A program made the position numbers and the translations under genes. Under the pieces are notes generated by a model, which did not search any database, was not told the origin of the DNA, and saw only the letters and a list, made by a program, of their open reading frames with translations. A DNA stretch of 64,000 nucleotides from Candidatus Obscuribacter phosphatis (lineage in GTDB: Bacteria > Cyanobacteriota > Vampirovibrionia > Obscuribacterales > Obscuribacteraceae). Shown piece by piece: positions 26,953-42,135 of the stretch (its first letter is position 1; every line of letters starts with the position of its first letter). The stretch is from positions 1,898,599-1,962,598 of the forward strand of contig MOYA01000001.1 in the NCBI GenBank assembly GCA_001899315.1, given 5' to 3'.

Positions 26953-28296
26953 TTAGCGGGGGGCGAATCGCTCTCTCTCGGCATTTAGTCTATCGAGGTC
27001 AGACTGGGTAATTATGCCTGTCTGTACAAACAGCTCTATAAGCCGCACTCCCTTCTGCCGAGACATCTCGTTTAGTTCTCGTAATTCTTCCCCAGTCATT
27101 CTTCGCCTTTGTAACAGATATTGATCAAGCTCCACCCTGCCAAGCAGTAAATCGATGGTAAGACTGACCACAGCGTCGGGCGGCTCAAGATAGCCGCGCT
27201 CTAGTGAAAACTTACAAGTGTAGAGAACCTGCCCTGGATAACGCCCCTTTGCCGTAGCCACTTCGATCAAGCTCTTCTTCTCTCGAAAGTCGCTAAGAAT
27301 AGATTTGAGATCATTGTCCAGGGCATCATTATTGAGAGCGATCTGACCAAAAGGGGCAAGGGGCAGCGAAACTTGAAAGAGTCTTTCTATATCTATGGCG
27401 ACAAGGGGCAGCGGATCTGTCCGTCTAATATCGAAAGCTCCGGCTGGTTTCGGCTCCACAGCCACAGCAGCCTTCTTTTTATGAGCCTCCACATCTTGGG
27501 CAGTCAAGGCCGGTAGACTTTCAAAAGTCTGCGCAGCGGAGCCTTCCGGATTGGCAGACAAGATTTTGTTTTCCAGTTCTTGCTTGATCTTGGCTTCTTT
27601 TGCCGATTTTTCACTTTGCTTAAGAGCCTTTTCTTGCTCTATATCACCTTCCATATTGTCGGAAGAAGCCTCGTTCAGCAAAGGCAATTCCTCACTGGTC
27701 TGGGCACCAAGCGCGGTGCCCAAGCCCAAACTTTCGGCAAACTTCTGGCAAGGTTCGACCGAACCGGTCAAAACCAGTCTATATAAAGAAGCGGTAGCGC
27801 GCACAGCATCAAATTGAAACTCGCGCATAGCCTCACGCATCGAGCGCCCTTCTTTTGCCCAACCCAATACAACAAAGTCGTCCTTGGTAAGCGGCTGTTT
27901 GGCCAAAACAGCTTGCCATTCAGCCGTACCGAACCGAGAAGAGGTAACTATTTCGGTATTGAGACCCATGCCTTGTTCGGTGAGAAAAGCCATCTGGTCG
28001 GCAAATGAGTTTGTTAATCTCATCGGCAGTTTCATATTAGGAGTGATCGTTTCTCTAAACCGACTGGAAAGTTTGTCAACAATAAAGCCGCCTTCACGCC
28101 AGGCAAGTAGCTCTATAAGAGCATCATCGCCCTCGAGAATGCCGAAAGCAGCATAAATAAGTTCGCCTTCCGAGAGAAAGAGCTCACCACGATTATTGCC
28201 GTTCAATAACCTGACTTTGTAGCTCTTGCCAGCTTCGGTGGCTAAAAACTGCAATAGTCCAGGTAAGCCTACGTCGACAAGACTGCCCTCAATCAT
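26953..28296 (-). CDS. PATAN/DUF4388-domain regulator
   Basis: 447 aa. The N-terminus, from IEGSLVDVGLPGLLQFLA to about residue 100, is a DUF4388 (PATAN) domain with the typical GELFLSEGELIYA and LLAWREGGF. A helical segment (100-180) and a disordered acidic/Lys-rich linker (about 190-285) follow. The C-terminal part (about 300-447) has LLLGRVELDQYLLQRRRMTGEELRELNEMSRQKG, like the N-domain of GspE/MshE-type proteins. PATAN domains, first seen in cyanobacterial PatA, act in signal transduction. Two further PATAN proteins are in the window. It is transcribed divergently from sigA. Confidence 0.8.
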   Translation of the reverse strand: MIEGSLVDVGLPGLLQFLATEAGKSYKVRLLNGNNRGELFLSEGELIYAAFGILEGDDALIELLAWREGGFIVDKLSSRFRETITPNMKLPMRLTNSFADQMAFLTEQGMGLNTEIVTSSRFGTAEWQAVLAKQPLTKDDFVVLGWAKEGRSMREAMREFQFDAVRATASLYRLVLTGSVEPCQKFAESLGLGTALGAQTSEELPLLNEASSDNMEGDIEQEKALKQSEKSAKEAKIKQELENKILSANPEGSAAQTFESLPALTAQDVEAHKKKAAVAVEPKPAGAFDIRRTDPLPLVAIDIERLFQVSLPLAPFGQIALNNDALDNDLKSILSDFREKKSLIEVATAKGRYPGQVLYTCKFSLERGYLEPPDAVVSLTIDLLLGRVELDQYLLQRRRMTGEELRELNEMSRQKGVRLIELFVQTGIITQSDLDRLNAERERFAPR

Positions 28297-28483: not shown

Positions 28484-29434
28484 ATGCCGAAATTGGCTTC
28501 TAGAGTTACGGACGATCTTTCAGACGACTGGTCAGAGGTTTTCGAAGAGGAAACTCTGCAGCAAGAAGACAGCGAAGAACCTGTCGAGGTGCAAGCAGAG
28601 GGCTTTACAGAAGACTCGGTCAGACTCTACTTGAGAGAAATCGGTCGGGTCAAAATGATCAAACCCGATGAAGAAATTGAACTGGCAAGACTAATTGCCA
28701 AAGGAGATCAGGACGCCAAGAAGAAGCTTATACAAGCCAATCTTCGTCTGGTCATCTCTATTGCTAAAAAGTATCTGAACCGCGGTCTACCCTTTCAAGA
28801 TCTCATTCAAGAAGGCAATCTCGGTCTGATCAGGGCAGCTGAAAAGTTCGACCATACCAAAGGTTTCAAGTTTTCCACCTATGCCACTTGGTGGATAAGG
28901 CAGGCCATAAGCCGAGGTCTAGCCGATAAATCGCGCACTATCAGAGTGCCGGTGCACATGGTCGAATCAATAAACAAGCTAAAAAAGACCAGCGCCCGCC
29001 TAGCCCAAGAACTGGGAAGAAAGCCAAACGAACAGGAACTCTCCAGCGCCCTCGATATACCTGTAACTAAAGTGCAGGAAATCATGCAGGCTGACAGAGA
29101 GCCGGTTTCAATGGAAATGCCTTTGAGCAGAGACGATGAGACCTATATCGGCGACCTCATTGAAGACAACGAAAGCACTCGTCCGGACGCCACAACGGCC
29201 GACGAATTGATGAGGCAAGACCTTAGTCGGATGCTCAGCCAGCTTACCCCCAGAGAGCGCGATATTATGCATCTGCGCTATGGCCTTGAAGATGGACGGC
29301 AAAGAACCTTGGAAGAAGTAGGCCGACTCTTCAATATAACCAGAGAAAGAGTTAGACAAATTGAGCACAAAGCCTTTAGAAAGCTGAGACAGCCCAATTG
29401 GTCATCTAAACTGGCAGGCTATTTGGAAGACTGA
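28484..29434 (+). CDS. Sigma-70 family RNA polymerase sigma factor (SigA/RpoD-like)
   Basis: 316 aa; acidic N-terminus of about 40 aa, no region 1.1. Region 1.2: [27 protein letters not shown]. Region 2: [38 protein letters not shown] and the -10-reading [29 protein letters not shown]. Region 3 is about 165-235. Region 4.2 has the helix-turn-helix [28 protein letters not shown]. All hallmarks of a primary or group 2 sigma are present; the short size and lack of region 1.1 fit either. Ribosome binding site AAAAGGGAG is close to the ATG. Confidence 0.93.
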
Positions 29435-32502: not shown

Positions 32503-32521
32503 ATAAGGCAAGAGACCTTAT
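32503..32521 (-). terminator. Possible terminator of the minus-strand gene at 32518
   Basis: On the minus strand ATAAGG and CCTTAT form a 6-bp stem with a 7-nt loop, followed by AGC and six T. The stem overlaps the stop codon at 32518-32520. It also faces the end of the carboxylase gene. Confidence 0.5.
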
Positions 32522-33270
32522 TTCAGCGCTGTTTTCTTCAAGTATGGATAGACCAGGTTAAACTCAGCTTTCTCTTCAGAAGATTGCGGATCTTGCTTGC
32601 AGTGATAATTGATCAGATTGACATGACCAAAATACGGCGCAGGCAATAGGCACTCGTACATAGCGACCGATTTAACTTCTGAATCACCGCCGGTTAGCTT
32701 GATTAAATGACTGAGGCAAGAATTAGGCGCCGGTGCGCTGTAACTGCTCTCTATAGGCGAGGCAATAAAATAACCTCTCAAGACGCCTATACCTTGTCGA
32801 TTCTGCAATTTGGCAGATTCGGAAAGAAAGCGCTGCACTATGGACATCTCGGCATTGCCGATATCACTAAGCAAGACCAGCCCTCTAGCCAAGATAGCCC
32901 TACCTGCTTTGAAATTTAGTTCCAAAGCAGGAAGCAAACTACGGGAGAACAAGCCTTTCTCCATTTGCTTTACTTCTACTGTATCGATACGAGCCAAAGC
33001 CTCAAAAAGAGTTATCTGCCTGTTGAAGAGCCCGGTCTGGTGCATAGTGAGAAAATAGCCATGCAAGATAAAGGCGATGAAATCACTTGCCAATTGCATG
33101 TATTCGGCATTTTCGCAACCCTTGCCGCTCGCTACCGAGAGACTCAAATTAGAGCATGCCGCCTCAACATCGAGGGTTGTCACTGAGCGCGGATTCTGCA
33201 CCACCGAGCCGAGATGAAAACGCTCAGGATCGGCAACTTTTATCAGAACCGCCGAGATATCAGATGGCAT
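32518..33270 (-). CDS. Uncharacterised soluble protein
   Basis: 250 aa, no signal peptide or membrane segment. The sequence is mixed alpha/beta with patches like YMQLASDFIAFILHGYFLTMHQTGLFNRQITLFEALAR (quoted as two ends: YMQLASDF and LFEALAR) and C-terminal YHCKQDPQSSEEKAEF. No catalytic motif is recognised. Flanked by the carboxylase (convergent) and the sigma-like gene (divergent). Function unknown. Confidence 0.6.
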   Translation of the reverse strand: MPSDISAVLIKVADPERFHLGSVVQNPRSVTTLDVEAACSNLSLSVASGKGCENAEYMQLASDFIAFILHGYFLTMHQTGLFNRQITLFEALARIDTVEVKQMEKGLFSRSLLPALELNFKAGRAILARGLVLLSDIGNAEMSIVQRFLSESAKLQNRQGIGVLRGYFIASPIESSYSAPAPNSCLSHLIKLTGGDSEVKSVAMYECLLPAPYFGHVNLINYHCKQDPQSSEEKAEFNLVYPYLKKTALK

Positions 33271-33636
33271 CGTGCTTGTAAATTCCCCAAAAGTGGTACA
33301 TCAAGGTTATGGTCAATGGCGCTCGCAATGTAAGTCTAGCAATAGACTTCTAATTTGGGGGGAAATTGCAGGAAAAGTCGGTCCGGCTCTACCTCAGATG
33401 GAATATATCAGGTAAACTGGTAACAGGCGACCTGCTTGTGCATTCATGCTCATGCAGGAAGTCGACCAGCCTTCTTCGCCAGTACTTACTTGCCAGAGGC
33501 TCGGTCATCAGTACTCAACCGGTTTCCTATCTATCGGACATCTTCAAACGCGTTGTCTACTTATCAAGTAAATCGTTCGGTTCGCCCAAGGCATTAATTG
33601 ACTTTGGGTTGCTTTAATTTGTGAAAAGAAAAATCT
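33271..33636. other. 366-bp intergenic region
   Basis: It lies between two divergent genes and presumably holds both promoters. An open frame at 33366-33617 (83 aa, TTG start) has no good ribosome binding site and a Ser/Leu/Arg-rich composition, and is not called a gene. An imperfect stem (CGACCTGC 33428-33435 with GCAGGAAGTCG 33454-33464) is visible. Confidence 0.6.
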
Positions 33637-34215
33637 ATGGCTCTTTTACCCCCAAAAAACAGTACTCAGGAGTTTGACCAATCGGCCCAAACAGTTCTTG
33701 GCGAGCTGAGAAAAGGCAGTGCGGAAAAGCGTAATGAGTTTGTCTGGGTGCAGCAAGAGAGAGTTTTTGCGGTGGCCCTGCTCGGCACCGGTAGCCAAGA
33801 GAGCGCAGCCCAAGTGACCATCTCGGCTTTCAACAATGCCTTCGCCTCGCTCAATCAAGGCTTGCCAAAAAATGGTGAAATGACTGTTTGGGAGTGGCTC
33901 TCCAAGTTCGTGGTGGAATCTATGTCTGAATACCACAACGAGTTCAGCGGCGCGCCCGAAGAAGATGATGGCGATCCATCACAGGATGGTTCCGCCAACA
34001 TGGATTGGGAGACGACCGTACTACTGGGAGTGCAGCGAGTGAAACGCTGCATCAATCAGTTACCCAATGAACAGAAGCGAGTTTTTCTTCTCAGACACTC
34101 TCTTGACCTTAACTATGACCAGATTGCAGTGGTGACAAACCTTAGAGTTGAAAAGTGCATGGAACTTCTTTATCGAGCCAGAGTGCAGGTTGTTAAATGC
34201 CTCGGGCGGGGTTGA
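33637..34215 (+). CDS. ECF-sigma-like transcription factor
   Basis: 192 aa. Region 2-like part (about 40-105, ESAAQVTISAFNNAFASLNQ and TVWEWLSKFVVESMSEYHNEF) keeps the spacing of ECF region 2 but has lost most usual polymerase-contact residues. An acidic linker (EEDDGDPSQDG) follows, then a good region 4 (about 130-190: QLPNEQKRVFLLRHSLDLNYDQIAVVTNLRVEKC..., a helix-turn-helix). It lies 31 bases upstream of a gene whose N-terminus resembles an anti-sigma domain; sigma/anti-sigma pairs are usually adjacent. It may be a functional divergent ECF sigma or a DNA-binding adaptor. Confidence 0.65.
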   Translation: MALLPPKNSTQEFDQSAQTVLGELRKGSAEKRNEFVWVQQERVFAVALLGTGSQESAAQVTISAFNNAFASLNQGLPKNGEMTVWEWLSKFVVESMSEYHNEFSGAPEEDDGDPSQDGSANMDWETTVLLGVQRVKRCINQLPNEQKRVFLLRHSLDLNYDQIAVVTNLRVEKCMELLYRARVQVVKCLGRG

Positions 34216-34246
34216 TAAGCCAAATAAGAAAAGGATTTAATTCAGA

Positions 34247-37200
34247 ATGTCTGACGCACAATTTCGATTATTGATTCAGCGGTCGTTTGATGAAGAACTC
34301 AGCAAACAAGAAAACCGTGCCCTCCTAGACCACTTGGACAGTTCGGAATCGGGTCAGAAATTCCACCATCAACTCGACCAAATGATTCAAGCGGCTCAGG
34401 ATATGCCTCTGCCTGATGAATTAAAGCCCCAGAACCCCGAAGCTCTCGCGAGAATGATCATGGAACAATTACCGCAGAAAAAAGGCAATATATTCGGTTT
34501 CTTGACCGGATTATTCGGAGGAGGGGGCGGCGGCAAGCCTAAGCAAAAAGCCGAGCCGAAAAACGGCAAAAATCAAAAGGATGCCGCCGGTGATGGTGGC
34601 AGACGCGATGGCGGCAAAAAAGACAATGCCAAAGTAGCCAGAGGCAAAGGTGGCTTCAACAAAGGCAAGTCGCAAGATTTTGAAGACGATCAAGATAATG
34701 AAGAACCAGCCGGCAAGATGCCTGGTATCAAGTTCCCTCGCAAAGCAAAAGAACTAGACCAAGAAGAAATTGAGACCCAGGCTGGCGGATTTTCCCGACT
34801 CAAGTCTATGGGCAATCGCTCTCAGGACCAAGACAACCGAGAAGCGCAATCGACCACACGTTCGCTCGGCGAGAAATTCTCAATGCCTTGGGCGGCTCAA
34901 AGCGGCGCTGACGACGGTCCCCTTACCCTAGCCGAATCAATCAAGCGCAAAGTAACCGAATCTCAAAAGCTCTCTCCTATAGATGAGAACGAACTTTCCG
35001 GCAGTCACAGCGATTCTTACCTGAGCGGAGCTTCGGCTGGCAGCCAGGGCGGATTCGCCCCACCATCCCAACAGAATGCTTTTGGTCGCACCGATGCAGG
35101 TTTCGCCCCTTCTTTCGCCCAACCAGGTGCTCAGTCTTCGCAAAGTTCACAGAGTTCACAAATGGGTATGGACCAGCCCACATCGTCTTCAGACGGCTGG
35201 AGCGCACCGGTAGCCATGCCCAACAAACAACCTGTGAAACTGGACATGGGTGGCGGATTCAGCCCCAGCACCGGCGGCGGTGGCGGCAGTGCCATAGGTC
35301 TTAGTCAACCGGCAGCGACTCCTGCGCCTTCAGCTAATGATTGGGGCGGTGCTGCAGGCTGGCAAGGTCAAGCCCAAGCTCCGGCTCAAGCGAAAGAAGA
35401 ACCTAAGACTGATTGGGGCTCCGGTTGGAATGCCCCGACCGACCAAAAACAACCACTTAAGTCATCCGACTCATGGGCCATGCCCGGAGCCGAGGGCGGA
35501 CAATCATGGGAAGCAGCAAGAAGCAGCGCCAGTCACAACGCTCTGCCGGCCCAAGGTCAGGCGAGTGCAGCGCCCAGTGCTGATCCCTGGGGATCTCCAG
35601 GGGGAAGTCCGGGGGGAACTCCGGGGGGCGCTCAGGGAGGCTCAGATAATGCAGCCAACTCTGCAGGCTCAGGCTGGAACAGCCAGCAACCAGCTGCTTC
35701 ACCTCCAGCTTGGAACGCCGCTCCCGCAGCCACTCCAGTATCTAGTTCGATAGGTGCCAACCCGACAAGTTCTGCTTCAGGCTGGGAAACAGCCGCTCCG
35801 GCACCATCTCCGGTCCCAAGTCAGCCGCAAGGACAAGTCGGTCTCGGCAGCTCAGCCGGGTGGGACAGCACTCCCACTCCAGCAGCCGGTGGCTGGGATG
35901 CTCCGTCCACAGCGGCTTCTTCCACAGCGGCTTCGTCACCAGCCTCACCCACTTCGACTAACTCAGGCTGGGATGCTGTACCAGCAGCTCAACCAGCAGC
36001 AAGCACTAATGCTGGCTGGGATGCCTCGCCCGCAGTTTCTGCACCAGCAGCTCAAAACAGCGGCTGGGATGCCAGTCCGGCCCCCGCTGCCAGCGCCAAC
36101 TCCGGTCAAGCCGGCTGGGGTCAAGCCGGTGCCACGCCATCAGGTTGGGGCCAGACTGACAGCTGGACTGCAGCACAACCGGCTTCGGCACCGCAGGCGG
36201 TGCAACCAGTGCCGGCGGCTCCGGCACCGGCTGCCGATCCATGGGCACAGGCCGCACCGGCTCCAGCTCCTGCCCCTGCTAACTCTTGGGCGCAAGCAGC
36301 TCCAGCCAACCCGGCACCGATGGAGCATCAAGCAGCGGCGCCAGCCAACGACCCTTGGGCTGTGTCACCACAGGCGGTGGCGGCTCCAGCTCCACAGACA
36401 GCCCAACCGGCTGGCGGAGGCTGGGCTCAGCAGCCGGCTGAAGCCAAGCAAGCTTCCAAGCGCGCTTGGGCCACTGCCGAACCAGATCTAATTGAGACGG
36501 GTACTTTCCGGGCCTTCACCCCGAGCATGGACAACAGCTTGGGCGCCAAAGCGCCACCTCGTCCCCAGACAGGACAGCAAGCCAATCCCTTTGCCAACAC
36601 TCAAGTAGGCGGCGCACCCTTAAGTAATGCACAAGCTCCTGCGCCGGCTGCTCCCATAGATAACCGCTTTGACGTACCTATATCTGAGCGCATAAAGCAA
36701 CAGGCACCGATACAGCAAGAAGCCCAACAAGCTGCACCTGACAATCGTTTCGATATTCCGATATCGGAACGGATGAAGATGCAACAAGACGGCAGCCAAA
36801 TAAAATCAGTACAGGAAAACAAACCGATAGCCCCTGTACAAAATCAGTCCAATATTCCAGTCAATCAAATTGTAGATAAAATGGGCGAAGTGCTCGCCGG
36901 AGGTCAGGCTCAAGCCAGTCAAGATGCTCGCTGGGAACTGCCGATTGCTGACCGAATGAAGATGCAGCAATCTGGTGCAGACATTGGCGTGCCCGAGCAG
37001 CCGGCTCAACCAGCACAGACAGGCTGGCAAAGTAACGCCCCAGTGGCATCAGGTTGGAATCAACAACCACAAGCCCAGGCGGAAGTGCAGTCAGGATGGG
37101 GCGTCTCGGCCCCCCAAGCCCAGCCTCAAGCCCAGCCAGTCGCAGAAGCTCAATCTCCTTGGGGCAATACCCAAGCTCAATCAGTTGAATCTTCTCCTTG

Positions 37201-38653
37201 GGGCAACACCCAGGCTCCGGCTGCCGTGCAGCCAGTAGCTCAAGCAGCAGAATCATCTCCCTGGGGCAACACCCAGGCTCAGGCGGTCTCGGCTCCTCAA
37301 CCTGTGGCTCCAGCAGTCGAAGCTTCCCCTTGGGGTAACGCTCAGGCTCAGTCAGCGCCATCAGCCTGGAACCAGCCGTCGCCGGCGGCACCACCCGCGA
37401 TGCCGACCGTGGCAGCGCCTGCCGCAGCGGCGCCGAGCGAAATTACAGACAAAGGTAAGGCCGGCGGTCTCTTCAACCTAGACAACAATGCTATAGACAA
37501 AATCTTTGATGGCATAGGTGTCACCGAATCAGTCAGTCAGACTGTGGTGAACTCCGGTGGTCCGAACGAACAGCCTCAAGCCTCGGGATGGGGAAATCAA
37601 AATAATGCACCAGCGGCACCGGCTGCATTTGCCCCGCCCGCAAGTCAGCCGGCAGCGGCATCACCCTGGGCGACGGCAGCACCCGCACCGGCACCGACAC
37701 CAGCTGCCAACATACAGGCACCAGCACCGGTGGCAGCGGCACAAGCGAACCAGTCCAAAGGTCTGTTCCAGCTGGATGATCAGGCAGTTGATCAAATCTT
37801 CGGCAATATAGGCGTAGAAGAGAAATCAGTGCCAATTTCTAAATCACAGGAAATGTCCGCCCCAGTTGGCGGGTTTGCCCAGGCTCCTGCGCAGACAATG
37901 CAACCAGCTCAATCAGGTTGGAATCAGCCAGCTGTGCCAGCAGCCCCCGCTCAAGCCATGCAGGCACAGCCCGCCCAGGGTGGCTGGCCGCAAGCTCAGG
38001 CAACGCCGGGAGGCTGGGCGCAGCCGCCCGCCCAAGGCATGTTCCAAGCCGATGCCAATGTCATGAATAAAGTATTTCCCGAAGCACAGCCTCAGGCACC
38101 GGCTCAGCCTGTGATCCATGAAATCAGACCGGCTCCAAAAATTGAGGGTATCGGTAGATTAGATGCAAGTGCAGACAATTCGCAAGATACTGGTTCGGGA
38201 AGAATCGCTGCCATCGGCAAGTTCTTGCTTGACCAGAAAGACCTGGACAAAATAGGCAAACTAGCCCAGTCGGATATGGCTGAAGGTAAACTGCGGGTGC
38301 TGACAATGGAAGCCTCACAGGACCTGCAGGAATTGCTTGGTCAAATCGGCAAGCAGCAAGGCGTAATCGGCTCTGTGATTGTCGGACACGACGGTCTTCT
38401 CATCGCCAATACAATGCCTTCCGACATGGATGCAGAATCTGTAGGGGTCTGGGCTCTTGGTGTCTACATGAACACCGAGCATGTCACCAAAAAGATGGGA
38501 CATGACCGGGTTCACCAAGTGGTCTCACGCACACCGCGGGGCTATGTGGTCATCGCCGATTTCGGCGGCGGTCTGCTCGTCACCGTCACAGACGGCAACG
38601 AAACAGATCAGTTGATACCGCTCATGCGCACCATCACCCTCTTGGTGAACTAG
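34247..38653 (+). CDS. 1468-aa protein: degenerate anti-sigma-like N-terminus, long disordered middle, Roadblock/LC7 C-terminus
   Basis: Residues 1-75 resemble the helical zinc-finger anti-sigma (ZAS) fold, but the HxxxCxxC end reads DHLDSSESG, so the zinc cysteines are replaced. About 85-1320 is Pro/Ala/Gln/Ser/Gly-rich and disordered, with repeated SGWDA and SPWGNTQAQ units. It contains three copies of a charged motif (NRFDVPISER at 806, NRFDIPISER at 833, ARWELPIADR at 894, each followed by a Met/Ile-Lys) and four of a GLFxLDxxxxDxIFxxIG-type motif (near 1074, 1172, 1265, 1325). Residues about 1344-1468 form a Roadblock/LC7 domain (SVIVGHDGLLIANTMP, RGYVVIADFGGGLLVTVTD), the fold of MglB-type GTPase regulators. 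Probably a signalling scaffold. Confidence 0.75.
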   Translation: MSDAQFRLLIQRSFDEELSKQENRALLDHLDSSESGQKFHHQLDQMIQAAQDMPLPDELKPQNPEALARMIMEQLPQKKGNIFGFLTGLFGGGGGGKPKQKAEPKNGKNQKDAAGDGGRRDGGKKDNAKVARGKGGFNKGKSQDFEDDQDNEEPAGKMPGIKFPRKAKELDQEEIETQAGGFSRLKSMGNRSQDQDNREAQSTTRSLGEKFSMPWAAQSGADDGPLTLAESIKRKVTESQKLSPIDENELSGSHSDSYLSGASAGSQGGFAPPSQQNAFGRTDAGFAPSFAQPGAQSSQSSQSSQMGMDQPTSSSDGWSAPVAMPNKQPVKLDMGGGFSPSTGGGGGSAIGLSQPAATPAPSANDWGGAAGWQGQAQAPAQAKEEPKTDWGSGWNAPTDQKQPLKSSDSWAMPGAEGGQSWEAARSSASHNALPAQGQASAAPSADPWGSPGGSPGGTPGGAQGGSDNAANSAGSGWNSQQPAASPPAWNAAPAATPVSSSIGANPTSSASGWETAAPAPSPVPSQPQGQVGLGSSAGWDSTPTPAAGGWDAPSTAASSTAASSPASPTSTNSGWDAVPAAQPAASTNAGWDASPAVSAPAAQNSGWDASPAPAASANSGQAGWGQAGATPSGWGQTDSWTAAQPASAPQAVQPVPAAPAPAADPWAQAAPAPAPAPANSWAQAAPANPAPMEHQAAAPANDPWAVSPQAVAAPAPQTAQPAGGGWAQQPAEAKQASKRAWATAEPDLIETGTFRAFTPSMDNSLGAKAPPRPQTGQQANPFANTQVGGAPLSNAQAPAPAAPIDNRFDVPISERIKQQAPIQQEAQQAAPDNRFDIPISERMKMQQDGSQIKSVQENKPIAPVQNQSNIPVNQIVDKMGEVLAGGQAQASQDARWELPIADRMKMQQSGADIGVPEQPAQPAQTGWQSNAPVASGWNQQPQAQAEVQSGWGVSAPQAQPQAQPVAEAQSPWGNTQAQSVESSPWGNTQAPAAVQPVAQAAESSPWGNTQAQAVSAPQPVAPAVEASPWGNAQAQSAPSAWNQPSPAAPPAMPTVAAPAAAAPSEITDKGKAGGLFNLDNNAIDKIFDGIGVTESVSQTVVNSGGPNEQPQASGWGNQNNAPAAPAAFAPPASQPAAASPWATAAPAPAPTPAANIQAPAPVAAAQANQSKGLFQLDDQAVDQIFGNIGVEEKSVPISKSQEMSAPVGGFAQAPAQTMQPAQSGWNQPAVPAAPAQAMQAQPAQGGWPQAQATPGGWAQPPAQGMFQADANVMNKVFPEAQPQAPAQPVIHEIRPAPKIEGIGRLDASADNSQDTGSGRIAAIGKFLLDQKDLDKIGKLAQSDMAEGKLRVLTMEASQDLQELLGQIGKQQGVIGSVIVGHDGLLIANTMPSDMDAESVGVWALGVYMNTEHVTKKMGHDRVHQVVSRTPRGYVVIADFGGGLLVTVTDGNETDQLIPLMRTITLLVN

Positions 38654-40221: not shown

Positions 40222-42135
40222 TTAGTTTGTATGGTTGTTGATTACTTTGGTAACAATCTCGTCGACGATAGCGGCATCATAGCCGGCTAGTTGCCTACGA
40301 GAATAAGCAAGATAAGCTTCCATCCAGCGGCGCAGCTCAAGCAGCACGGCTGAGACCGGCACAGCCGCTCGCTTCATCTGGGCAAGGTTGACTGAGATTC
40401 GCCCTTCATGGTCAATGTGAAAGCGCCCTTTTGCCGGCGAGTCACCATGCACATAGTGCAAGCTGGAATTGAGCAAGACTTTATTATCTTCCGGTCCAAC
40501 TAGATTCTGAATCTCCTCTGAAATCTTTTGAAAAATAGTGAGCGGTCTAAAGAGACTGCCTTGCTGAATGTTTGCCAACTTCAGTTGCACAAGCAAATAA
40601 ATCGACTTCATAATCTTGTGAGTGCACCAAGTCTCATACGATTTCAAGACTTCGTCAAGAGTAGAGAGTCCGTCAATATAAGTTGCCAGCTCAGCTATAC
40701 GTTTGCGATCTTCAATTTGCACTGCACTCTCATCAATAAAGGTAAGAGGTGTAGTCTTCATCTGCAGCCAAAGGGCCTCAAAGTTCCAGACCCTCTCCAA
40801 AATTGAGTCACGCCCCTGTGGAAATATGCCAAGAATCTGGTTGATTTGATCTTGAAACAAAGCGGAGTCTAAGAGGAGTCTATCAAGGCTCTGGCTGAGA
40901 CGAGCACTATCATCCAGTTCTAGAGACTTGCCTTTATCTCGAAATACAAAAATTCCTTCGCTCCAAGTGGTGAGAAATTCCACCATGGCATCATAGCCTC
41001 TTAACTTACTGAGGCTGGCATGAGTTGGTTTACCGCCTTCGAAAGCTACAATCAAGGTCTTGTCGCGATTATCAACGGTCAAGAGTCCTGTTTTCTTGGC
41101 CGTAGCCAAAGACTGCAAGAGACCGGCAGTATCTATGGCGCCAAGACTTCCTATCATCGAATCCCGCATGGTCTCGATATTTGCACCGCGCGAGGTATTA
41201 GTATCATCCTCGGTGCGCTTATGATAGCCGCCATAGAGGTACTGATCATCAAGCAAAACTTCCAATTCTCTTGTATTGATAAAGCCGGCTTTAACACACA
41301 TGAGACCCAAGAAGCTACGCTGCGACTTGCCCCAACCTTCTTCTTGCTGTTTCTCTAATAGCTCACGCAACTGGGTCTCAGAAATAATGCCGCAGGCTAC
41401 AAGATAGCGACCAAGGCGAAAAGGCTTGCGATTGTGATAACAGTTAGAGAGAAACTGTATACGAGCAAAAACAGGATAAATCAGCCGAGCCGCTTCGAAT
41501 TCCTGCAAAATGCGCAATGCCTCGTCGGAAGGCAGGTGATAGCGATCTTCCACATTGCGCACTATCGATTCCACCGAAGCGTAGTCGTCAATCATCTGCA
41601 TCACCCAGTTCTGCGGAGCAGCAAGAGAATAATCATTCTTCACCGACTTACCGTAGTCGGAGAGCACGGGCACCGAGGTGGAAAGAATATGATTGGCGAG
41701 CGTGCTGCCGCCGCCGCGTAGGCGCCGCCTATCAATACCAGATACGGTGGCACAGGCATAATCGGCGAGCAATGGATAGCGGGTGAAAATTCCAAATGGG
41801 CTATCGTAAGAGTTAAATGTCAGACCACCGGTGGGCTCATCTCTAGTGAGCGTTATCGCGCCATCGCCTTTAACAAACAAAAGCACTCCTTGAGGCTTGA
41901 GCAGTTTCTTGGCATAGACGGCAAACTTGACCAAAGCATCAAGAGGCAGAGAGAAACCTGTCTGCATCAAATCGATAATCAGTCCGTCCAAGCTTTTGCC
42001 CGACTCTACAAGCTTATCCAGCTGTCCATAAAGATTCTCGCGGTATGAAAAGGTGAGGAAACTCAAAGATGAGTTCAATAGACCATCTTTACTGAATGAC
42101 TGATCTGATAAGGAGCCCCTCTCCCGTTCCGTCAA
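40222..42135 (-). CDS. PATAN/DUF4388 protein with GspE/MshE-like repeats
   Basis: 637 aa, TTG start at 42135. N-terminus (about 1-165) is an unrecognised alpha/beta part (LDGLIIDLMQTGFSLPLDAL). Residues about 175-225 are helical (winged-helix-like: EALRILQEFEAARLIYPV). About 245-305 has two copies of an LGxLLVxxGxIxxxxLxxLLxxQ pattern (FRLGRYLVACGIISETQLRELL and SFLGLMCVKAGFINTRELEVLL), resembling the c-di-GMP-binding N-domain of MshE. About 340-440 is DUF4388 (GSLGAIDTAGLLQSLATA, TGLLTVDNRDKTLIVAFEGGKPTHAS). The C-terminal 200 residues are helical. Probably a signalling protein; c-di-GMP binding is an inference. Confidence 0.75.
   Translation of the reverse strand: MTERERGSLSDQSFSKDGLLNSSLSFLTFSYRENLYGQLDKLVESGKSLDGLIIDLMQTGFSLPLDALVKFAVYAKKLLKPQGVLLFVKGDGAITLTRDEPTGGLTFNSYDSPFGIFTRYPLLADYACATVSGIDRRRLRGGGSTLANHILSTSVPVLSDYGKSVKNDYSLAAPQNWVMQMIDDYASVESIVRNVEDRYHLPSDEALRILQEFEAARLIYPVFARIQFLSNCYHNRKPFRLGRYLVACGIISETQLRELLEKQQEEGWGKSQRSFLGLMCVKAGFINTRELEVLLDDQYLYGGYHKRTEDDTNTSRGANIETMRDSMIGSLGAIDTAGLLQSLATAKKTGLLTVDNRDKTLIVAFEGGKPTHASLSKLRGYDAMVEFLTTWSEGIFVFRDKGKSLELDDSARLSQSLDRLLLDSALFQDQINQILGIFPQGRDSILERVWNFEALWLQMKTTPLTFIDESAVQIEDRKRIAELATYIDGLSTLDEVLKSYETWCTHKIMKSIYLLVQLKLANIQQGSLFRPLTIFQKISEEIQNLVGPEDNKVLLNSSLHYVHGDSPAKGRFHIDHEGRISVNLAQMKRAAVPVSAVLLELRRWMEAYLAYSRRQLAGYDAAIVDEIVTKVINNHTN

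Follow-up and report, generated by a model that had tools for sequence, protein, structure and literature searches.

A sigma-like gene and its anti-sigma/Roadblock partner in Obscuribacterales: a candidate link between the polarity GTPase MglA and sigma-type gene control

The window analysed here, a 64,000-nucleotide stretch of a Candidatus Obscuribacterales genome assembled to 5.49 Mb in 8 contigs, with Candidatus Obscuribacterales / Melainabacteria MAGs as its nearest named relatives, carries a sigma-like gene (P0001) followed after a gap of 31 nt by a gene for a 1468-aa protein (P0002) that joins an anti-sigma domain, a long disordered linker and a Roadblock domain. Our preferred reading, to which we give a probability of roughly 0.5, is that the two products are cognate, an ECF-type sigma/anti-sigma pair whose soluble anti-sigma member responds to the MglA polarity GTPase and not to a membrane sensor. 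The folds, the conservation, the co-occurrence with MglA and a repeated linker motif are its direct parts, read from sequences and structural models. From these we infer that the Roadblock domain and the motifs may bind MglA and that this may have an effect on transcription. The combined evidence suggests a physical connection, of a kind not described so far, between cell polarity and gene control. The features referred to below are as follows.

33407-33419 (+): conserved element ATCAGGTAAACTG 5' of the sigma gene, candidate operator or promoter of the pair (family consensus aATYAkGTAAACTGg)
33637-34215 (+): sigma-like gene P0001, 192 aa, with sigma2 fold, acidic linker and sigma4 fold
34247-38653 (+): P0002, anti-sigma/disordered/Roadblock protein, 1468-aa open reading frame with orthologues downstream of the sigma orthologues
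34247-34486 (+): anti-sigma (ZAS-type) domain, residues 1-80, called from zf-HC2 matches in the family, an RsiW match and the alignment
34487-34534 (+): hydrophobic patch NIFGFLTGLFGGGGGG after the anti-sigma domain, FxxFxxxF-like, at the same place in most orthologues
34535-38266 (+): disordered linker, from composition, hydropathy and low pLDDT in the modelled part
37469-37507 (+): motif 1 LFNLDNNAIDKIF, MglB-Ct-helix-like, residues 1075-1087, found by regular expression and by profiles A4 and A6
37763-37801 (+): motif 2 LFQLDDQAVDQIF, MglB-Ct-helix-like, residues 1173-1185, found in the same ways
38039-38077 (+): motif 3 MFQADANVMNKVF, MglB-Ct-helix-like, residues 1265-1277, a weaker copy
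38303-38650 (+): Roadblock/LC7 domain, residues 1353-1468, from Pfam, an AlphaFold model and fold matches

Conservation of the gene pair

Both open reading frames of the original prediction were present at their coordinates. Orthologues of P0001 with strong scores were found in 50 of the 53 genomes of the order Obscuribacterales, non-photosynthetic relatives of the cyanobacteria, and a family-profile search of the class beyond the order, 329 genomes, detected none. Profile A2, applied to 386 genomes of the phylum, matched outside the order only frames of 222 and 226 aa and, weakly, an internal part of a 1322-aa frame. Wherever the contig was long enough, the P0001 orthologue was followed on its own strand by a gene whose product starts with the same anti-sigma domain. 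These partners, directly downstream of the sigma orthologues, are 744 to 1845 aa long, and all complete ones end in a Roadblock region, except for a single frame of 300 aa close to the end of its contig. The pair is thus conserved beyond this genome and far more widely than chance would give, with the partner adjacent wherever the contig continues. Because the genes flanking the pair are also syntenic across the order, adjacency alone is not special; what the sequences single out is a protein of 744-1845 aa that keeps its architecture while its linker changes fast. An annotation artefact, in which two unrelated neighbours received chance domain matches, could draw on the low-complexity linker and the weak region-2 score. 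It is ruled out for practical purposes by the fact that about 50 genomes keep both the adjacency and the architecture.

The surroundings of the pair were also recorded. A divergent 250-aa gene beside the sigma gene (32518-33270, -) is syntenic in the order but evolves fast, with 23-42% identity once the closest strain is set aside, and has no Pfam match. Synteny is also conserved, at 78-100% identity, for a sigma70-like gene (28484-29434, +; 316 aa, assigned by eye) situated 4.2 kb upstream. DUF4388 proteins stand on both sides of the pair (26953-28296, -, and 40222-42135, -), likewise in conserved synteny, and the host genome has 19 DUF4388 matches. In two relatives, additional Roadblock matches occur in separate frames directly 3' of the anti-sigma gene (G032:C14:89740-90372 and G004:C11:232480-232737).

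The sigma-like protein, its anti-sigma partner and the upstream element

ECF sigma factors direct RNA polymerase to promoters, and an adjacent cognate anti-sigma gene is common among them, though not universal; P0001 has such a neighbour. Its ECF (group IV) layout, sigma2 and sigma4 without sigma3, was seen by model, fold search and profile alike, and the family profile aligned across both domains with AlgU at 3e-11 and with E. coli sigmaE at 2.8e-9. The original prediction had described a good region 4 and a weak region 2. The first was upheld by a Sigma70_r4_2 match at 40.1 bits. The second stood at the profile level, where the Pfam scan matched P0001 to no region-2 model, but not at the level of fold, which is that of a genuine sigma2.

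The association of the two products was modelled on a read-through fusion from a relative in which the two genes are in frame (L088), using 62 sequences. The fusion formed one body with a pTM of 0.84 and a pLDDT of 85.5, the spacer falling below 50. Matches of the modelled sigma part in Foldseek and VIA were mostly sigma factors, several of them taken out of anti-sigma complexes. The closest folds were sigmaE, AlgU and SigW, with Z 10.8 over 93 residues against sigmaE region 2 and Z 10.3 over 152 residues against SigW in SigW-RsiW; PhyR chains were among the matches at Z 6.5-6.8. The model agrees with the interface that had been proposed, as support and not as proof, because a single fused chain favours contact and there was no control fusion. 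On this model we infer that the anti-sigma domain may hold P0001.

It had also been claimed that the N-terminus of P0002 is a ZAS fold with replaced zinc cysteines. Alone, P0002 matched zf-HC2 at E 0.009, below the Pfam cut-off. Among orthologous N-termini, 24/24 matched zf-HC2 (best 2.8e-7) and 21/24 the NCBIfam anti-sigma model, and the best solved relative of the domain profile was an RsiW chain (5wuq_C, E 6.8e-7). In the alignment the zinc motif region reads MSDAQFRLLIQRSFD...HLDSSESG in the window versus MNCSRFRFLIQQRFD...HLESCESC in other genera. The window's HLDSSESG thus aligns with HLExCESC and lacks the HxxxCxxC that is intact in most other genera. The degenerate-ZAS call was right, because orthologous N-termini match zf-HC2 with this motif intact. 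Three alignment members are without any zinc cysteines (the window, L085 and L088), which places the ligand loss in the genus of the window and in two sister genera; because most other genera keep the motif, the loss appears to be derived.

Some ZAS proteins release their sigma factor in response to zinc or redox state. A conventional ECF/ZAS switch of this kind, with the long C-terminal tail incidental, would fit the zinc ligands that are intact in most genera. It is disfavoured for the window, where we consider it very improbable: the pair persists in the three genera that have lost the ligands, and zinc or redox release therefore cannot be the core mechanism. The tail, moreover, is under selection, because across the order the Roadblock region keeps 49-77% identity to that of the window strain while linker length varies among the 744- to 1845-aa proteins.

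The residues with which an ECF sigma factor reads promoters are a different matter. In 15/15 P0001-family sequences the region 2.3/2.4 segment has a net charge of -1 to -5, versus +4/+5 in E. coli sigmaE and AlgU. In place of the R-S-R of the sigmaE recognition helix, whose arginines we take to be those that contact DNA, the 46 orthologues mostly have M-A-W or something similar; nearly all have lost its basic residues, the exception being a single Lys. The family therefore lacks the basic promoter-reading residues of ECF factors in both places, and because of the acidic region 2.3/2.4 and the altered recognition helix P0001 is probably not an ordinary promoter-melting sigma factor. P0001 may still bind DNA, because sigma4 of the family is net basic (mean +5.9, versus -2 and -3 in sigmaE and AlgU) and two later arginines of the recognition segment are kept in 46/46 orthologues. 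It may bind a single site, perhaps the GTAAACT element in front of the sigma gene itself, or serve as a docking partner instead.

This 15-bp element was found 5' of the sigma gene in 40/46 regions (26 after removal of near-duplicates), with core columns mostly at 1.5-2.0 bits versus about 0.1-0.3 in the flanks. Its distance to the gene varied from 34 to 372 nt at the loci listed. The sequence ATYAKGTAMACTG occurred once each in G000, G036 and G039, three of the five genomes searched, and always near the sigma gene. Upstream of the sigma gene no second element at a fixed spacing from GTAAACT was found, and an enumeration of -35/-10 dyads gave a marginal excess over shuffles. The element could be a promoter, or an operator for P0001 or another factor.

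These observations bear on the strongest rival to our reading. In PhyR a sigma-like body binds an anti-sigma protein. If P0001 were a sigma mimic of this sort, its sigma body would only bind the anti-sigma domain, and the pair would be an MglA docking module without promoter recognition. We regard this as a serious possibility, short of even odds. The acidic region 2.3/2.4, the lost basic residues of the recognition helix and the PhyR chains in the fold lists all argue for it; the basic sigma4 with its two invariant arginines, the lack of a receiver domain in P0001 and the unique conserved upstream element argue against it.

The Roadblock domain, MglA and the linker motifs

A C-terminal Roadblock/LC7 domain had been predicted, and the analysis bore this out. 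The sole Pfam match of P0002 was Robl_LC7 (residues 1361-1447, 34.2 bits), and the AlphaFold model of the domain, with a pLDDT of about 90, has a Roadblock fold, with Z 17.9 against an Asgard Roadblock and Z 15.6 against M. xanthus MglB. The suggestion that MglA-like GTPases would be found elsewhere in the genome also proved correct: there are two true MglAs, L143, which matched the T. thermophilus MglA structure at E 2.5e-70, and L144, which is 74% identical to L143. Both keep R53, F56, F57, F59, L64, Q82, K181 and K185, and position 67 is I in L143 and V in L144. The conserved MglA residues are MglB contacts or catalytic (PMC6785124). MglA was present in 50/53 genomes of the order versus 6/329 others in the class. 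The mglA genes lie on other contigs and not beside the pair. Directly upstream of one of them is a DUF4388 (PATAN-type) protein (L143:10-1878, +; genome C3:699 kb) with a GGDEF-like end by eye. In two relatives, mglA copies contain one in-frame stop, TAG and TGA (G019:C173:5434-6015 and G007:C56:178490-179071).

The long disordered region of the original prediction is likewise there: about 1,200 residues, of which 68% are P/A/G/Q/S/N. It has no transmembrane-like stretch by hydropathy and contains about 33 short Trp motifs (GW, PWG, GWD). Within it the motif FxxhxDxxhDxhF precedes the Roadblock domain in 1-3 copies in every complete orthologue. The motif was first spotted by eye and the regular expression was written after examples had been seen; its 80 copies in 33 linkers, versus 0.12 in shuffled linkers, therefore measure conservation and are not an independent prediction. 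Two profiles were used: A4, which includes rows of the window and of a second Roadblock protein, and the clean profile A6, built without either. Motif 3 scored 9.3e-8 with A4, of which it is itself a part, and was not among the matches listed for A6. Across ten genomes A6 gave E<1e-4 only in P0002 orthologues, and among the next matches those in G000 (C1:350 kb), G016, G014 and G023 lay in frames also bearing a Roadblock match.

Searched against 177,635 PDB sequences, A6 placed MglB chains first and second, exactly at the Ct-helix, at E 2.1. MglB was absent from the 45 PDB matches of the looser A4, which were unrelated proteins, and phmmer with the motif 23-mer found no match in the PDB. When the MglB tail was shuffled 20,000 times, no shuffle scored as high with the motif profile. 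In a gapless alignment the motif shares the pattern of the MglB Ct-helix FAEISDDDIDNLF (the MglB sequence was confirmed from the PDB), and two of its four invariant residues correspond to MglB Asp154 and Phe157, which contact K185 and K181 of MglA (PMC6785124). Because of the E value of 2.1 and the absence of MglB from the A4 matches, the resemblance of the motif to the MglB Ct-helix is suggestive only.

In the second long Roadblock protein of the genome (L003:1363-3189, -; C1:350 kb; open frame of 989 aa), the disordered part bears EPLFAGGVDEDIDNIFTTL-like repeats, four in all, that closely resemble the MglB Ct-helix. An IGKxLLD extension before the Roadblock domain is common to this protein and P0002.

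Roadblock domains dimerise, and roles without a GTPase exist. An ordinary sigma/anti-sigma switch unrelated to MglA, in which the Roadblock domain only dimerises and the motifs bind another partner, would be in keeping with this general knowledge and with a motif-MglB similarity that is short and, taken alone, statistically weak. We consider it unlikely, given that the motif is concentrated in the Roadblock proteins of these genomes, that the fold matches MglB well (Z 15.6) and that MglA co-occurs with the pair.

Proposed mechanism and comparison with known systems

In the preferred, MglA-coupled reading, the anti-sigma domain of P0002 would hold P0001, the Roadblock dimer would dock on MglA and the linker helices would fill the allosteric Ct-helix pocket of the GTPase. 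The sigma/anti-sigma body would then be tethered to MglA at the pole, or its release would be switched by the GTP/GDP state. The original prediction had proposed a transcription-polarity or GTPase-linked sensor coupling the sigma-like factor to a small GTPase; this is partly supported, and the linker motifs and the co-occurrence of MglA with the pair go further than it did. A more specific version, in which a sigma-like protein that has given up the usual way of reading promoters, the anti-sigma domain and the multivalent MglB-like tail make up one MglA-controlled assembly, possibly a polar regulator, is offered tentatively and is somewhat doubtful. If true, this version would be the first case in which a bacterial Ras-like polarity GTPase is physically coupled to sigma/anti-sigma machinery. 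If MglA binds P0002, polarity and gene expression would be joined in one assembly of which we found no description, MglB-type allosteric helices would be portable, repeatable motifs, and there would be a first handle on signalling in Obscuribacterales, represented here almost only by metagenome-assembled genomes.

Every part of the system comes from a known family, and the combination is without a description in the literature searched. That literature was partial, so absence is not proven; in it we found nothing that links Roadblock, MglA or a small GTPase to sigma/anti-sigma proteins, and nothing on MglA in Obscuribacter that describes a link of this kind. The pair resembles SigW-RsiW, sigmaE-RseA and AlgU-MucA in its adjacent genes, a protein of sigma2 and sigma4, and an RsiW-related N-terminal anti-sigma domain, and the sigma component of the model is SigW-like. 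Unlike these ECF/ZAS pairs, P0002 has no transmembrane segment, and a disordered linker of about 1,200 residues and a Roadblock domain replace the membrane sensor; the zinc ligands are lost in the window's clade and the DNA-reading helices of P0001 have lost basic residues.

With MglA-MglB of Myxococcus xanthus and Thermus thermophilus the system shares the Roadblock fold, an MglA with conserved interface residues and the Ct-helix-like motif. MglB has GAP/GEF activity on MglA, which it binds through a Ct-helix placed after the Roadblock domain, whereas in P0002 the motif, in 1-3 copies, precedes that domain by up to several hundred residues. P0002 further differs from MglB in being fused to an anti-sigma domain, in being far longer and in not lying beside mglA.

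A Roadblock protein together with a Ras-like GTPase is also found in the Streptomyces conservons CvnA-D, which affect development or metabolism (PMC8510531). A conservon consists of four genes, for histidine-kinase-like, Roadblock, DUF742 and GTPase proteins, with no sigma/anti-sigma pair (PMC8510531). The syntenic neighbours of P0002, some of them family-scanned, include no CvnA/CvnC-like set, and the GTPases are on other contigs. With PhyR-NepR-EcfG, finally, the pair shares a sigma-like protein whose action may not depend on promoter reading. PhyR has a C-terminal receiver domain, which P0001 lacks (only sigma4 reaches the Pfam cut-off in its 192 aa), and the anti-sigma domain of P0002, unlike NepR, is RsiW-like.
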